Assembly: GCF_035573695.1 (NCBI RefSeq)
Contig: NZ_CP121694.1
Coordinates: 3,014,501 to 3,078,500, forward strand
Reading direction: 5' to 3'
DNA length: 64,000 bases
Origin: Metallumcola ferriviriculae
GTDB taxonomy: Bacteria > Bacillota > JADQBR01
This document shows positions 56,075-62,825 of the stretch, one piece after another (the stretch's first letter is position 1; the number at the start of each line of letters is the position of its first letter). Made by a program: the position numbers and the translations under genes. Under the pieces are notes generated by a model that did not search any database, was not told the DNA's origin, and was given only the letters and a program-made list of their open reading frames with translations.

Positions 56075-57067
56075 TTATTGCTTTACCAGCTCAAATCCAT
56101 TTCCTTCAACCCAGCCGGCATTAATTCCTCTATTAAGCGATACTGTCTTAATTCCAATGAGGTTTAATACAGCATCAGTTTGGCCGGCAGTCTGCCCTGT
56201 ATAGCAGGCTACTACAGCAGTTTTACCTTTTGCCATTTCTGTAATCTCAGCGAAATGCTTGGAAACTTCTTTAAAAGGAATATCAATAGCGCCAGTGACG
56301 GTTCCTTTGGCATACTCTTCATGACCCCTAATGTCGATCATTACGAATTTTTCCGGGTTTTTCTCCAGCTGATCCTTCAGATCTGGCTCGGAAATTTTAT
56401 AACTTTTAAACATCCCGTTACTTGGCATTTTGTCAAAATATTTTTCCACAGCTTCTTTAACAGGCAGTTTATCGCCCCAATCATATGCTTCTGCCGCCTT
56501 AAGCTCAACGGCGTCTTGAACCATGGGATAATTCTTTGCTTTCCAGCCTAATTCCATTCCTAAATTGATGCTTCTAGCATTTATGCCCAACATATTTAAC
56601 ACTGCTACCGTTTGTCCAGCTGTTTGCCCTGTCCAACATACCACCAGCACTGCCTTCTTACCCTTGGCATTAGTAGCAATTAAGTCTAGATTCTGCCCAA
56701 GCTCAGCAAACGGAATATCAATTGCTCCTTGGATATGACCCTCAGCATAATGATCATGCCCCGTGATATCCAATACCAAGTAATCCTCTAGGGTCCCACT
56801 ATCAAGCAGGTCTTTAACTTCATCGCTAGTAATCTTATAAATGTGACTTGGCATTTTCTCATAGTATTTAGTAGCAGCGTCCAAAATAACTTGCTGTGCG
56901 TCGACCTTAGAACCGGTGTCTTCCTTGGGTGCAGCTTGTTCAACTTGCGGTTTTTCAGGTGTTTCTGCCAGTTGGCCTTGCCCTCCGCAGCCCACAACCA
57001 AGCTAATACTAAAAATTAATACCAATAACAAGCCAAAAAACTTTAACTTTTGTCCTTTAAAAAACAT
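56075..57067 (-). CDS. double-rhodanese lipoprotein
   Basis: 330 residues. Lipoprotein signal with lipobox VVGC (Cys27), a charged linker, then two rhodanese domains. Domain 1: DYLVLDITGHDHYAEGHIQGAIDIPFAEL with active-site loop CWTGQTAG. Domain 2: FVMIDIRGHEEYAKGTVTGAIDIPFKEV with CYTGQTAG. Both catalytic Cys are present. Extracytoplasmic sulfurtransferases of this type move sulfane sulfur. It is the last gene of the cytochrome operon, 20 bp after the multiheme gene, so it probably supplies or accepts sulfur for that complex. Confidence 0.9.
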   Translation of the reverse strand: MFFKGQKLKFFGLLLVLIFSISLVVGCGGQGQLAETPEKPQVEQAAPKEDTGSKVDAQQVILDAATKYYEKMPSHIYKITSDEVKDLLDSGTLEDYLVLDITGHDHYAEGHIQGAIDIPFAELGQNLDLIATNAKGKKAVLVVCWTGQTAGQTVAVLNMLGINARSINLGMELGWKAKNYPMVQDAVELKAAEAYDWGDKLPVKEAVEKYFDKMPSNGMFKSYKISEPDLKDQLEKNPEKFVMIDIRGHEEYAKGTVTGAIDIPFKEVSKHFAEITEMAKGKTAVVACYTGQTAGQTDAVLNLIGIKTVSLNRGINAGWVEGNGFELVKQ

Positions 57068-57087: not shown

Positions 57088-58503
57088 TTACTTTTTAGCC
57101 TCAATGGCTTCAGGAATCTCCGTCACCACATATTCTAAAGATGCCTTACTATCGGTGGGCAGAATATCCTCTTCGGTAAGAAAGACCTTTTCCACTCCAT
57201 GACAAGAATTACAATCAGCTGCCTGAGGTGTGTACAACTGGGTATTATGCGTTGGTGATTCCTTCCAGCTGGATATTTTATCGAAGTTATCTAGTTCAGG
57301 ATAGCCCATACCCTCAAGCGAATCACGAACCATCGGCATATGCCGTACCGTAATGAATTTATTAGGATGCAGTTCTGTCGGATTAGGATTTTTGGCAATT
57401 TTAAAAACGTCAATAACTTTTGAAGAAGGTAAAACACTGTTCTGTTTTTCATCCTTATAGGAAACATGACAATCACTGCACCCATGCGCCTCTTGAGAAT
57501 GACAGACGGAACACGATAGCAAATCGGGGTCCTCATGCGCTAAGTGCATTTCAATACCCTTTTCCTCTGACAAGGTATCCGCATGACAATTGGCTGAAAT
57601 ACAGGTTGGTAAATCCTCCTTAACATGCATGTTTTCCGGTAAATCCCCGGTGCCATGAAAATTTGACTTAGGATGGCAATCAGTGCACACCATATCGTAA
57701 TCATAATAATGGGTATCAGCAGCCGGCCCCACATTACCAATAAATTCTCCGCCGTTTCTTGTAGAGTGGCAGCCTACGCAAGTTTTCTCCATTGGTGGAA
57801 CCTTTTCAAACTGGTGAGCTGAGAGCAATCCGCCTTCCTGTACCTTAGGTCGGCTTACATGACAGCCGCCGCATTCTGCATGACATTCGTTACAATCCAA
57901 TTCCCAACCCTTGGTTATGGCATTTGTCCCTTCCGCCAATATGCCTTCATGGGTATATGAAATCATAGAATTAACTTGACCATTTTGTGTGTAATGCAGC
58001 GATTCAGCATAAAATTCTGTAACGTCATCATGACACTTTTCACAGACACCAAATTGCAAACCTTCATCGTTCCATTCGGGTGATGCGGGACTTTCTATCA
58101 TTCCTTCATGAGCAGTTTCAGGTTCCATAGCGTTCTTGCCGCCGTGGCAGCTGCGACAGCTAATAAACCCATGGGTAGTTGTAGAAAAATCCTGAGACAC
58201 GACAAACTTGTCGGTCAGCGAAAGCTTTGGAGGCGGAGCTCCTCAACCGCCACCGGCTTCTTCTACTTCCCCTTCCCCCTCCGGCTTTTCATAGGCACTT
58301 ATTGCTTCAGCATCCGTATGGCATCCTTCGCAACTGGTACTGTCTAAAATCTCAATCCCTGCTTCCGCCGGGGTCTTTGGTATAGCATTTGTAGCAACAG
58401 TTGTTTGTTGAGCACACCCGGCAAAAGCTGCAGCAATCAATATGGCAATGATTACGAGAAGCAGCAGTCCATAGTAGTTTCTATTTTTAGTCAATGATTT
58501 CAC
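57088..58503 (-). CDS. multiheme cytochrome c lipoprotein with in-frame UGA, candidate selenoprotein
   Basis: Read through one TGA (58243-58245) this is a 471-residue protein. Residues 1-30 form a lipoprotein signal (lipobox AFAGC), then one heme site CEGCH, an acidic/Gly linker (EEAGGG), the UGA at codon 87, GAPPPKLSLTDK, and ten more heme sites: CRSCH, CEKCH, CNECH, CGGCH, CVGCH, CTDCH, CISANCH (CX4CH), CSVCH, CSDCH and CNSCH. The frame is the same on both sides. The distal part alone would start at a GTG (58200) with no ribosome binding site and no export signal, although c-type hemes are attached outside the cytoplasm. So the UGA is either recoded as selenocysteine (a SECIS-like hairpin follows) or is a nonsense mutation of a Gly codon. 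Third gene of its operon. Confidence 0.75.
58196..58216 (-). promoter_or_regulatory. SECIS-like hairpin downstream of the in-frame UGA
   Basis: In the mRNA, GAC-CGACA pairs with UGUCG-U-GUC around an AGUU loop: eight base pairs with one bulged U. The loop is 35-38 bases after the UGA and has G as its second base. As I recall them, bacterial SECIS elements need a G in the first two loop bases and a loop about 16-37 bases from the UGA, so this is compatible but not proof. Confidence 0.4.
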
Positions 58504-58583
58504 CTCCTTTTAGTTAAGTAAGCACCTGTGGTAGGAAATAAAGATATAAAGCAATCAATATAGCAGCATATAACATAATCTCA

Positions 58584-59312
58584 CTAATGAGTAGCACTAG
58601 GTTGTTGTGGTACTTCCCTGCCATCCAACGATCCCTCCTTGTTCTCAATAAGGGCTAACTCCAAGGGATATTCATGTTCCATTACTTCCCGGCTTACTTT
58701 ACCAGTTAGCCAAACATTATTCATGGGGAAAAAATCCAGTGAAAAGTGTACCGCGTAAATATGCCAGGTAAAAATAACCAAAAAGGCAAGCATTCCTTCT
58801 CCCTGGTGGGCAAAATGCGAGCATTCAATGACCCACCTGGGCATGATAGCTATTGCTTTTCCCGGATATAACAAAATCAAGCCAGTAATAATCATCAGCG
58901 GCGTACCCCAGTATTCTGCCAAGTAATCTATCTTTTCTTTATAGGAGTATTTCGCAAACTGCGGTGCACTTCTTGTTAAACCACAGTAAAAACAAATATT
59001 TAATGCAAAATCCTTTAGGTCTTTCCAAACAGGCAGCATAGTTCCCCTTAAATTGCCCTTGAAAACTCTATGCACCAAATAAAACAAATGATAAACTCCC
59101 GCAATAATCATGATGACAGCCCCAGCCAAATGTATTGCAAATAATGTATTGAAGTTACCAAATAACTTGGCAAAGCTCTGCGCCCACGTTGTATACGCGA
59201 ATTTAATCACGATACCGGTTACGGCGCAGCTTAAGAAACTTATCACCGTTAGATAGTGCTGAAGGCGCTGATGAATATCCCAACGTTTGTACATAGTTGA
59301 TGTTCCAGTCAT
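58584..59312 (-). CDS. cytochrome b membrane subunit (FdnI/DUF4405-like)
   Basis: 242 residues with four membrane segments and His residues placed as in b-type cytochrome subunits of formate dehydrogenase and related enzymes (WDIHQRLQHYLTVISF; FAIHLAGAVIMIIAGVYHLFYLVH; FAHQGEGMLAFLVIFTWHIYAVHF). It likely exchanges electrons between the quinone pool and the multiheme cytochromes encoded on either side. ATG 59312 after AAAGGGGGTG. 2 bp after the heptaheme gene. Confidence 0.85.
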   Translation of the reverse strand: MTGTSTMYKRWDIHQRLQHYLTVISFLSCAVTGIVIKFAYTTWAQSFAKLFGNFNTLFAIHLAGAVIMIIAGVYHLFYLVHRVFKGNLRGTMLPVWKDLKDFALNICFYCGLTRSAPQFAKYSYKEKIDYLAEYWGTPLMIITGLILLYPGKAIAIMPRWVIECSHFAHQGEGMLAFLVIFTWHIYAVHFSLDFFPMNNVWLTGKVSREVMEHEYPLELALIENKEGSLDGREVPQQPSATH

Positions 59313-59314
59313 TT

Positions 59315-60175
59315 TTACACCCCCTTTGTTTCATCTTTCTTCCTAGTCAAAGCAGTTCGCAAACGATGGAATAAATCTAACTCAATGTGCAATAAGAAAA
59401 CAGTGACAACAACCAAGATAAGCCATATGAATATCTCTTTTGTCAAATACATCGGCAAACTATAACCCTCTGGCTGTATTACATAGTGCTCCATGCTTTC
59501 CGTTCCTAATAGACTGCTGCCATGACAGCTTTTGCAGAGAAAAGATTTCTTTTCCTCACTAGTCATAGCGACTGGATTGTCTTGACTCAGAATTTGGTGA
59601 TATCCATGACAGGTGACGCAATCTGCGGAATTTTCCGCATTAAGAGCTGCGGCCTTGCCATGAAAACTCTCTTTAAAATGTTCACTCTCTTGAGCATGGC
59701 ATTTCTGCCCACAGGTATCGGCAAGACTAACCGCCGCGACGGGAGAATCCACTCCGTCAATTTTCTTAATATAATGGCCCCCATGACAATCGACACAATT
59801 TGGCTGCTCCTGTTCGCTGTTTTGGTTATGCACACTGCGGCTATACTCGAAGGTAGCTCCGGTGTGACAGTTGGCACATTTTTCAGATACTCTGTTTGTC
59901 AGCACTTTCCCGTATTGATGAGGTTCCTCAAATTTGTGGCAGCCGATACAAGCAAACTGACCATGCACCGAATTCTCATATTTCTCCTGATCCACATATA
60001 GCGAGATCTTCTTTCCCTCTTTTTCAATACCAAAAGTTTCTTTTTCGTGGCAGCTTAAACATTGCTCTTTGGTTTTAAAGGGTTTTGGCTCAGTTTCCTT
60101 TGCAGTTGCATTTGTCACACCACTGATAATTGTGATTACTATCACAATTAAAATCAAAACTGTATATCTTTTCAA
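59315..60175 (-). CDS. membrane-anchored heptaheme cytochrome c
   Basis: 286 residues. Signal peptide (TVLILIVIVITIISGVTNATA), seven heme motifs in order CLSCH, CIGCH, CANCH, CVDCH, CGQKCH (CX3CH), CVTCH and CKSCH, then a C-terminal membrane helix (FIWLILVVVTVFLLHIELDLFHRL) with a basic tail. Paired His ligands (EEPHQYG, GGHY, FHGK) are evident. It faces outward and probably relays electrons between the cytochrome b and the other multiheme protein. TTG start after GGGAGGGGGGA. First gene of the operon. Confidence 0.88.
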   Translation of the reverse strand: MKRYTVLILIVIVITIISGVTNATAKETEPKPFKTKEQCLSCHEKETFGIEKEGKKISLYVDQEKYENSVHGQFACIGCHKFEEPHQYGKVLTNRVSEKCANCHTGATFEYSRSVHNQNSEQEQPNCVDCHGGHYIKKIDGVDSPVAAVSLADTCGQKCHAQESEHFKESFHGKAAALNAENSADCVTCHGYHQILSQDNPVAMTSEEKKSFLCKSCHGSSLLGTESMEHYVIQPEGYSLPMYLTKEIFIWLILVVVTVFLLHIELDLFHRLRTALTRKKDETKGV

Positions 60176-60288: not shown

Positions 60289-60520
60289 ACCTTGCCAAAA
60301 ACAATTAGTCTTAAATTCACATACAGGAGATCCTTTTGTTATTTATATTATTCACAATTCCATGTCAGTTTTCTTTTAACCTTTTTATATGCCATCAGCG
60401 TTCCACATAACCATATAGAAATGTGTTATAGAAGCGAATATTCTTAATATTTACTTAAAAGGATAACCATAATGAATAGCGAAATAATTCCATAATATAA
60501 TCTTTAAAGGGGTTATGCTA

Positions 60521-61426
60521 ATGCAGATTAACCAATTAGAAATATTTTGTATGGTTGCTCAAATAAAAAGCTTTTCAAAAGCAGCAAAACTGCTATACAT
60601 GACTCAACCGGCTGTCAGTAATCACATTATCTCTATGGAGAATTATTACGGCGCTAAGCTCTTTCACCGACATAGCTACGGTGTCTCTCTCACTGAAGTT
60701 GGCGATGTTGTCTATAAGCATTCCCAGAAGCTTTTAGACTTACATGATGCTATGGAGAAAGAAATCGACAAGGTCTTGAGCAAAGAAAATAGAAAATTAG
60801 TCGTGGGTGCAAGTTCAACCATCGGAAATTACACATTACCATGCAGTATATGGGCCTTTAAAGAAAAGTACCCCACTGTTGATATTAGTTTAGAAATTGG
60901 CAATTCAGCCACAATTATTAAAACGGTATTAAACAACCAAGTAAACCTGGCCGTGGTGGAAGGCCCTATTAATCATAAGGATTTAGAAGCTACTGATGTA
61001 TTCCAGGACGAATTAATCTTAATTACTCCTCCAAAGGGGAAATGGCTAGATATCCAAGAAATCACGTTAACGGAAATAAAAAAAGAACCCTTAATTATTC
61101 GAGAACAGGGCTCAGGAATTAGAAAGCTATGGGAAGAATTCTTACAATCTAATGGACTTGACCTGACCGACTTACAGGTAGTTACCGAGATGGGCAGTAT
61201 TGATGCCATTAAATCAGCGGTTGAATCAGGCCTTGGAGTTGCAATCGTTTCCAAACTCTCCGTAAAAAAGGAAATTAGGCGGGCGACTCTGAGAGAGGTT
61301 AAAATAAAAGATATTGTTTCTGATATAAATTTCCAAATTATCTACCGGCCAGAGAAAAACCAACCGACAATTACTAAGCGTTTCATCCGATTTTTGACTG
61401 TGCCCGAAGAAAGGTCCTTTTGTTAA
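60521..61426 (+). CDS. LysR-family transcriptional regulator
   Basis: 301 residues. N-terminal helix-turn-helix (INQLEIFCMVAQIKSFSKAAKLLYMTQPAVSNHIISMENYYGAKLFHRHSYGVSLTEVG) and a periplasmic-binding-protein-like effector domain (VGASSTIGNYTLPCSIWAFKEKYP...GLGVAIVSKLSV), as in the CysB/CbbR-type LTTRs. ATG 60521 sits 8 bp after AAAGGGG; the ATG at 60515 is too close. Divergent from the cytochrome operon and upstream of a convergent yedE gene, so it probably controls these sulfur genes. Confidence 0.92.
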   Translation: MQINQLEIFCMVAQIKSFSKAAKLLYMTQPAVSNHIISMENYYGAKLFHRHSYGVSLTEVGDVVYKHSQKLLDLHDAMEKEIDKVLSKENRKLVVGASSTIGNYTLPCSIWAFKEKYPTVDISLEIGNSATIIKTVLNNQVNLAVVEGPINHKDLEATDVFQDELILITPPKGKWLDIQEITLTEIKKEPLIIREQGSGIRKLWEEFLQSNGLDLTDLQVVTEMGSIDAIKSAVESGLGVAIVSKLSVKKEIRRATLREVKIKDIVSDINFQIIYRPEKNQPTITKRFIRFLTVPEERSFC

Positions 61427-61447
61427 ATCCGAATTTTAAAAAATTCA

Positions 61448-61963
61448 TTAGTTAGTAAGGTAACGGGAAATCACCTTAAGTCCCAACCAAGCACCCGGTA
61501 AAAGAAATATGCCAAATACCCAGCCATGCAGCGATAAGGAAGCACTGCCGCCAACCAAAGCACCGACACTACAGCCGCCGGCTAAACGGGCACCGTACCC
61601 CATAAAAAGACCGCCCAGCAGTGCCGCCATCACTTGTTTTATATTTCTCGGGCGGCGAATACGAAATTCGTGATAAATCAGGGCAGCAAACATAGCCCCA
61701 AAGATGATACCAATATTTAATAAAGTGCCAATCAAAAACGGTTGGTATTCAGTTAAGTGGTTATGCATCTGAATTTCCCCAAAGTATAACCACTGCTCAG
61801 GGGCCGCACCAAAAAACTTACTAAATTCTGCACCCCAATGGGACATAGCGGTTGTAATGCCCCACGGTTTTTCACTGAGCATAAACACAACAATATTAAG
61901 CAGTCCGAGCGCTACTCCTCCCAACCAATAGGGCAATCCGGTAAAAATAGTATTATTCTTCAT
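61448..61963 (-). CDS. YeeE/YedE-family sulfur transporter, second half-size unit
   Basis: 171 residues with about four to five membrane segments. The family motif is GYGARLAGGCSVGALVGGSASLSLHGWVFGIFLLPGAW, in which the GGC motif Cys takes part in thiosulfate or sulfane-sulfur passage in characterised YeeE. It lies 15 bp downstream of tusA. Together with the gene at 62187 it provides the two halves of a full YeeE-like channel. Confidence 0.9.
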   Translation of the reverse strand: MKNNTIFTGLPYWLGGVALGLLNIVVFMLSEKPWGITTAMSHWGAEFSKFFGAAPEQWLYFGEIQMHNHLTEYQPFLIGTLLNIGIIFGAMFAALIYHEFRIRRPRNIKQVMAALLGGLFMGYGARLAGGCSVGALVGGSASLSLHGWVFGIFLLPGAWLGLKVISRYLTN

Positions 61964-61978
61964 CTTTATCCCAACCCA

Positions 61979-62209
61979 TTATTTTTCTATTCTAACCTGC
62001 CAGACACCGGCCCCTTCCTCATCGACATCGATGGTAAAACCTTCCCGGCATGCCCAATCAAGTATATTCCTTACTGCCCTGGCATGCTCGGTCTCTAAAA
62101 TTAATACATCCCCCGGAGCTAGTTCCTGAAATTTTTCCTTTGTCCGCATTAACGGCACCGGGCACACATAACCCAATAAGTCTAAATTATATTGAGTGAT
62201 TTTCCCCAC
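61979..62209 (-). CDS. tusA: TusA-family sulfurtransferase
   Basis: About 76 residues. The sulfane-sulfur-carrying Cys is in LDLLGYVCPVPLMRTKEKFQELAPGDVLILETEHARAVRNI, the TusA signature. It sits between the two yedE-like genes and overlaps the upstream one, so it likely receives sulfur from the transporter inside the cell. The start is uncertain: GTG 62209, ATC 62200 (7 bp after GGAAGGTGG) and ATG 62230 are possible. Confidence 0.9.
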   Translation of the reverse strand: MGKITQYNLDLLGYVCPVPLMRTKEKFQELAPGDVLILETEHARAVRNILDWACREGFTIDVDEEGAGVWQVRIEK

Positions 62210-62825
62210 CTTCCTTTCGGAGCATCTCATTTTTAGCAGCTTTTTCAAAATGTAATATTAAAACCATTATCCCGACCAAAACCAATAATTGAACCAATAT
62301 AGCTATCGGCCACCCAAAAACTTCAGGAAAAAATACCACTACGGAGGAATGCTTAATACTACCCCAAAGACCATAATGGTAAGCACCCATAACTGAGCCA
62401 AAGATTAAACCTAACAATGTGGGAATAAATAATAGATATCCTTCACCAATTCTCATTAACGTCCCCGCTGCACAGCCACCCGCTATAGTCATTCCAAAGC
62501 CAAACAATAATGCTCCAAGAACAGTTCGCCACCCAACGGTTACTAGGTATCCCTCCCCGCCAGTAATTTGTATAAAAGTAAAACCCAATGTTGAAACAAA
62601 AATAAAAGCCACCAATGCTTTCAACAAATTCCCGTCACGAAATAACAAAAAATCACTAAACGCCGAGGCAATACAAAATCTAGATCTTTGCATTATAAAA
62701 CCCAGGCTTAACCCAACTACAGCAATCGCCATTAGGCTATAACCTATTTGACTGAAAATGATTGCAGTAAAAGTTAGGAAACCAGGCAGCAGTAAAGTGA
62801 ATTTATTATCGGGTCGAATTATCAT
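62187..62825 (-). CDS. YeeE/YedE-family sulfur transporter, first half-size unit
   Basis: 212 residues with about six membrane segments. It carries MQRSRFCIASAFSDFLLFRDG (a Cys-containing family motif) and LFGFGMTIAGGCAAGTLMRIGEGYLLF (GGC motif). Likely imports thiosulfate or a sulfane-sulfur species and hands it to TusA. First gene of the yedE-tusA-yedE unit, transcribed toward the LysR gene. Confidence 0.9.
   Translation of the reverse strand: MIIRPDNKFTLLLPGFLTFTAIIFSQIGYSLMAIAVVGLSLGFIMQRSRFCIASAFSDFLLFRDGNLLKALVAFIFVSTLGFTFIQITGGEGYLVTVGWRTVLGALLFGFGMTIAGGCAAGTLMRIGEGYLLFIPTLLGLIFGSVMGAYHYGLWGSIKHSSVVVFFPEVFGWPIAILVQLLVLVGIMVLILHFEKAAKNEMLRKEGGENHSI

Follow-up and report, generated by a model that had tools for sequence, protein, structure and literature searches.

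Organization of the Locus

The window, a stretch of 64,000 nucleotides of the Metallumcola ferriviriculae genome (contig NZ_CP121694.1, positions 3,014,501 to 3,078,500), contains a run of same-strand genes for a membrane multiheme cytochrome, a cytochrome b561, a putative small membrane protein, a putative selenocysteine (Sec)-containing c-type cytochrome and a rhodanese, in that order (Table 1). The small membrane ORF, which was read by eye, is placed between the genes for cytochrome b and the Sec cytochrome, and split YeeE/TusA genes of the thiosulfate type are found about 1.3 kb upstream.

Table 1. Features of the Sec cytochrome locus, in window coordinates.
Feature	Position	Strand	Basis or remark
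LysR gene in divergent orientation, with split YeeE/TusA/YeeE genes, next to the operon	60515-62825
Membrane-anchored multiheme cytochrome (C7/NapC-like)	59315-60175	-
Cytochrome b561-type membrane subunit, probable quinol-side partner	58584-59312	-	PF01292
36-residue ORF with a single membrane span and a Shine-Dalgarno sequence	58514-58624	-	Sequence read by eye
Shine-Dalgarno sequence AAAGGAGG	58503-58510	-	Sequence
Sec-containing undecaheme cytochrome c lipoprotein (predicted)	57088-58494	-	Likely TTG start; 81 UGA homologues
In-frame UGA, inferred selenocysteine codon	58243-58245	-
Candidate bSECIS hairpin, loop AGUU	58196-58216	-	Loop 34 nt past the UGA, off-register for the family
Tandem-rhodanese lipoprotein, conserved partner	56075-57067	-	Pfam PF00581

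The initial annotation, made from the sequence alone, had described a TGA that separates a lipoprotein leader with one heme site from a same-frame segment with ten heme sites, and had proposed that the two are one selenocysteine-containing cytochrome. On re-reading, the in-frame TGA lies at 58245-58243, 86 codons past a GTG; the local residues are AGGG-U-GAPPP, as described; and the leader upstream of the UGA has both a lipoprotein signal (AAAFAG followed by Cys) and heme 1. The ten distal heme sites were counted correctly, but they are nine CXXCH motifs and one CX4CH motif, CISANCH at 57603-57583 on the reverse strand, where aligned homologues show CXXCH. With 11 heme motifs in all and a lipobox recognized by eye, the product has the features of a multiheme c-type cytochrome with an export signal. 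The UGA falls in a Gly-rich linker separating hemes 1 and 2, and the window protein has no obvious resolving Cys next to it. Its numbering as codon 87 holds when counted from the GTG at 58503; because this GTG sits within the Shine-Dalgarno sequence AAAGGAGG (58510-58503), the TTG at 58494-58492 is the more likely translation start, which would make Sec residue 84. Further pairs of same-frame open segments divided by a stop exist in the window, and among these split pairs a homologous protein spanning the TGA was established only for the Sec cytochrome.

Homologues at the UGA Site

Homologues were collected by stop-tolerant searches or with heme-motif patterns, neither of which relies on the UGA. 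Among 60 relatives, the stop-tolerant search turned up two homologues with 38-39% identity, both with one TGA in this Gly-rich linker. Once about 400 genomes of the phylum had been searched, the TGA-bearing genomes numbered eleven, including that of the window, and two heme-motif patterns run over genome contigs yielded 80 loci. The 79 scan loci that cover the site have UGA (74), Cys encoded by TGC or TGT (4; L104, L111, L115 and L117) or, in L096 alone, Ser encoded by TCA. After removal of duplicates, 81 distinct loci carry UGA at the same linker position, preceded by Gly in 77 and followed by Gly or Ala in all 81, and all heme sites after the UGA are retained. The initial annotation had held that UGA or Cys at this codon would favor selenocysteine and Gly a nonsense mutation; Gly was found at the site in none of the aligned homologues. 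In L023/L096, where TCA replaces the UGA, the downstream hairpin sequence is still present, and the genome holding L023 contains selA, selB and tRNA-Sec; this TCA either arose recently or stems from an error in the assembly.

The hosts, mostly MAGs, belong to about ten phyla, with records from Bacillota, Spirochaetota, Thermodesulfobacteriota, Nitrospirota, Chloroflexota, Armatimonadota, Rokubacteria, Actinomycetota and KSB1, and locus L039 comes from a named strain, Anoxynatronum buryatiense. A tblastn search of plasmids gave no match. A gene remnant with stops that matches the post-UGA segment was also observed (L031; G152:C109:8259-8405). In a midpoint-rooted tree with several long branches, the clade bearing the linker is composed almost wholly of Sec proteins, and the three Cys proteins placed on the tree all fall within it; the window copy is divergent, with a branch of 1.45. 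Three non-Sec multiheme paralogues (L012, L027 and L028) resemble the family in heme layout, at low identity, but unlike it they have no Gly-U linker and lie outside the Sec clade.

Selenium Machinery of the Host Genomes

In the window genome, selA, selB, selC (tRNA-Sec) and selD all score over their cut-offs, and selD and two fdhA (formate dehydrogenase) genes have one in-frame TGA each. Of the findings that the initial annotation had named as refuting selenocysteine, a genome lacking sel genes and homologues uniformly carrying Gly were both absent. Every UGA genome tested has a tRNA-Sec score of at least 61 bits, and selB is over cut-off in all of them except G401, a small MAG of 2.2 Mb whose tRNA-Sec scores 73 bits. 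Neither selA nor selB exceeds the profile cut-offs in the Cys genomes of L104, L115 and L117, whose best tRNA-Sec scores are 52, 43 and 46 bits, respectively. The exception is L111, which has Cys at the site though its genome contains selA and selB.

A Hairpin Downstream of the UGA

In the family, bases +12 to +17 after the UGA pair with bases +21 to +26, with a typical spacing of 17 nt and a GUU loop in 55 of 81 members. Compared with synonymous shuffles of the same genes, 84% of the cells are paired vs. 53±1.7% (sd) expected, the top of 300 shuffles being 58%, and the mean stem is 5.4 bp vs. 1.6 bp. The types of pair vary on both strands of the stem; for instance, positions 13/25 are CG in 54 members and GC in 17. 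The published bSECIS criteria, which are a G in the first two loop bases, a distance of 16-37 nt from the UGA and an MFE of -7.5 or lower (PMC13188914), are passed by 70 of the 81 members, 49 of them at a spacing of 17. Because these criteria alone discriminate poorly, being passed also by 36% of ordinary TGA stops and 28% of other coding stretches, our argument is built on conservation of the hairpin within the family. The window copy does not have the +17 register. Its candidate hairpin (GACA-AGUU-UGUC) has a predicted energy of -9.3 kcal/mol (p = 0.003 vs. synonymous shuffles) and passes the published criteria at a spacing of 34 only. Since 28-36% of control sites pass these criteria as well, it is on its own weak evidence for Sec; a fold of the whole region made without homologues gave an uninformative z of -0.11.

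Probable Decoding of the UGA as Selenocysteine

Judged from these comparisons, the window UGA is almost certainly decoded as selenocysteine, because more than 80 relatives keep the UGA and the few that carry Cys mostly do so in genomes without selenium machinery. The conserved UGA/Cys exchanges, the sel genes, the family hairpin and the rhodanese partner described below all argue strongly for this decoding, as do the in-frame TGAs of selD and the two fdhA genes. A nonsense mutation, pseudogene or sequencing error that converted GGA to TGA in the Gly-rich linker would take a single-base change from Gly, and the window copy is indeed divergent with one heme motif altered. The same UGA is, however, present in 81 distinct loci from about ten phyla, its replacements are Cys rather than Gly and every post-UGA heme site is retained, which from the homologues makes such an accident very improbable. 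The UGA might instead be read as another amino acid, or might act as a regulated stop that yields a short one-heme product. Sec is decoded inefficiently and in a selenium-sensitive manner, which makes some short product plausible, but the Cys replacements, found mainly in genomes that lack sel genes, and the conservation of both the hairpin and the post-UGA sequence render either variant highly unlikely as the main explanation.

With the UGA read as selenocysteine, the two segments are very likely one 11-heme extracytoplasmic lipoprotein of a widespread and apparently undescribed Sec family, whose role we infer from its surroundings. Automated gene calling in which UGA counts as a stop will break these genes into a one-heme piece and a ten-heme piece that lacks a signal peptide, and a conserved redox selenoprotein of about ten phyla would thereby be missed or misread.

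Rhodanese Partner and Proposed Role

A rhodanese gene is found within 2.5 kb of the Sec cytochrome gene in 67 of the 77 loci with adequate flanks, as confirmed with Pfam in samples; it is absent from this interval in the other 10, and lies about 3.5 kb away in three Spirochaete loci. In L055 (10004-12187), one open frame joins the Sec cytochrome to two rhodanese domains. Relatives of the cytochrome b561 also occur in a few Chloroflexi, Armatimonadota and other loci, and LysR relatives flank many Chloroflexi copies too. In the AlphaFold2 model of the protein (mean pLDDT of 77, hemes absent), the arm carrying Sec is disordered, and Sec cannot be placed near a heme because the linker is of low confidence. 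A Foldseek search of this model against the PDB found nothing at E up to 10, and a PDB sequence-profile search matched other multiheme cytochromes only weakly and in part.

Based on the gene order of the operon, the conserved rhodanese and the fusion in L055, we propose that electrons of the quinol pool may reach the Sec cytochrome by way of the cytochrome b561 and the membrane multiheme protein. Its Sec, located in a flexible Gly-rich arm, would react with sulfane sulfur or selenium delivered by the rhodanese to give a selenenyl-sulfide (or -selenide), and the hemes would thereafter supply or accept electrons, so that the whole would be an electron conduit with a selenium tip that serves inorganic sulfur or selenium. 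Such an exchange of sulfane sulfur or selenium between Sec and the rhodanese, with electrons carried by the hemes, is a real possibility, which we put forward as a tentative proposal. More speculatively, a mobile Sec arm on an 11-heme wire, together with the rhodanese, could let membrane-derived electrons act on persulfides through a Se-S intermediate, with Sec possibly touching a heme iron; this combination may also be a selenoenzyme architecture without description in the literature searched.

Two other roles that accept the Sec decoding were considered. The protein might be a reductase of selenite, tellurite or another oxyanion, or part of a metal-reduction conduit, in the manner of the Geobacter Ext cluster, which likewise unites a Sec cytochrome with other cytochromes and a rhodanese (PMC5877670); family members also match ExtM, ExtN and ExtO weakly, probably through their heme motifs. 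This role appears somewhat unlikely, given that the family is not homologous to the Sec cytochrome of that cluster, that neither porin nor Ext proteins were identified beside the window Sec cytochrome, and that thiosulfate-type YeeE/TusA genes lie upstream. Alternatively, Sec might bind one heme as its axial ligand and not act as a mobile nucleophile. The family alignment has ten near-invariant His residues outside the motifs vs. 11 hemes, and the UGA site is nearly invariantly Sec or Cys, both in favor of such a ligand; but an open substrate heme would account equally well for ten His, Sec lies in a disordered Gly/Pro arm in the model, and the Ser variant L096 exists, so that we regard an axial role as quite unlikely.

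Comparison with Known Selenocysteine-Containing Cytochromes

None of the NCBIfam models (June 2026) covers the family, the window protein being unmatched and other members matching other cytochrome families only weakly. No description of this selenoprotein family was found among open PMC papers, and a 2026 review names ExtKL and an octaheme cytochrome as Sec cytochromes, with no other under cytochrome terms (PMC13188914). The octaheme protein, of the tetrathionate reductase family TIGR04315, is listed there in a Sec form and is likewise a multiheme cytochrome, but has eight hemes, whereas the present family has eleven and a Sec in a Gly linker. The TIGR04315 profile does not match the window protein and matches 2 of the 39 members searched, with a best E of 2e-4.

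ExtKL (GSU2937-2936, NCBIfam NF040886) is the Sec-containing cytochrome of the Geobacter ext cluster (PMC1914089; PMC5877670). Both it and the present family are multiheme c-type cytochromes whose genes contain a single in-frame UGA and are clustered with a rhodanese gene. ExtKL, however, has five hemes with Sec on their C-terminal side (HGIPDG-U-PTPNR in L132), unlike the 11 hemes and Gly-linker Sec described here. The two have no significant sequence similarity (BLASTP E of 0.5), the NF040886 profile matches neither the window protein nor any of 39 members searched over its cut-off, and a single genome (G403) carries both as separate genes. On these sequence comparisons ExtKL is not homologous to the new family. 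Sec multiheme cytochromes are already known as a kind, of which the present family is a variant; beside ExtKL, it would be a second and unrelated Sec multiheme cytochrome. The rhodanese that accompanies both suggests that the coupling of selenium chemistry to cytochrome electron conduits recurs.
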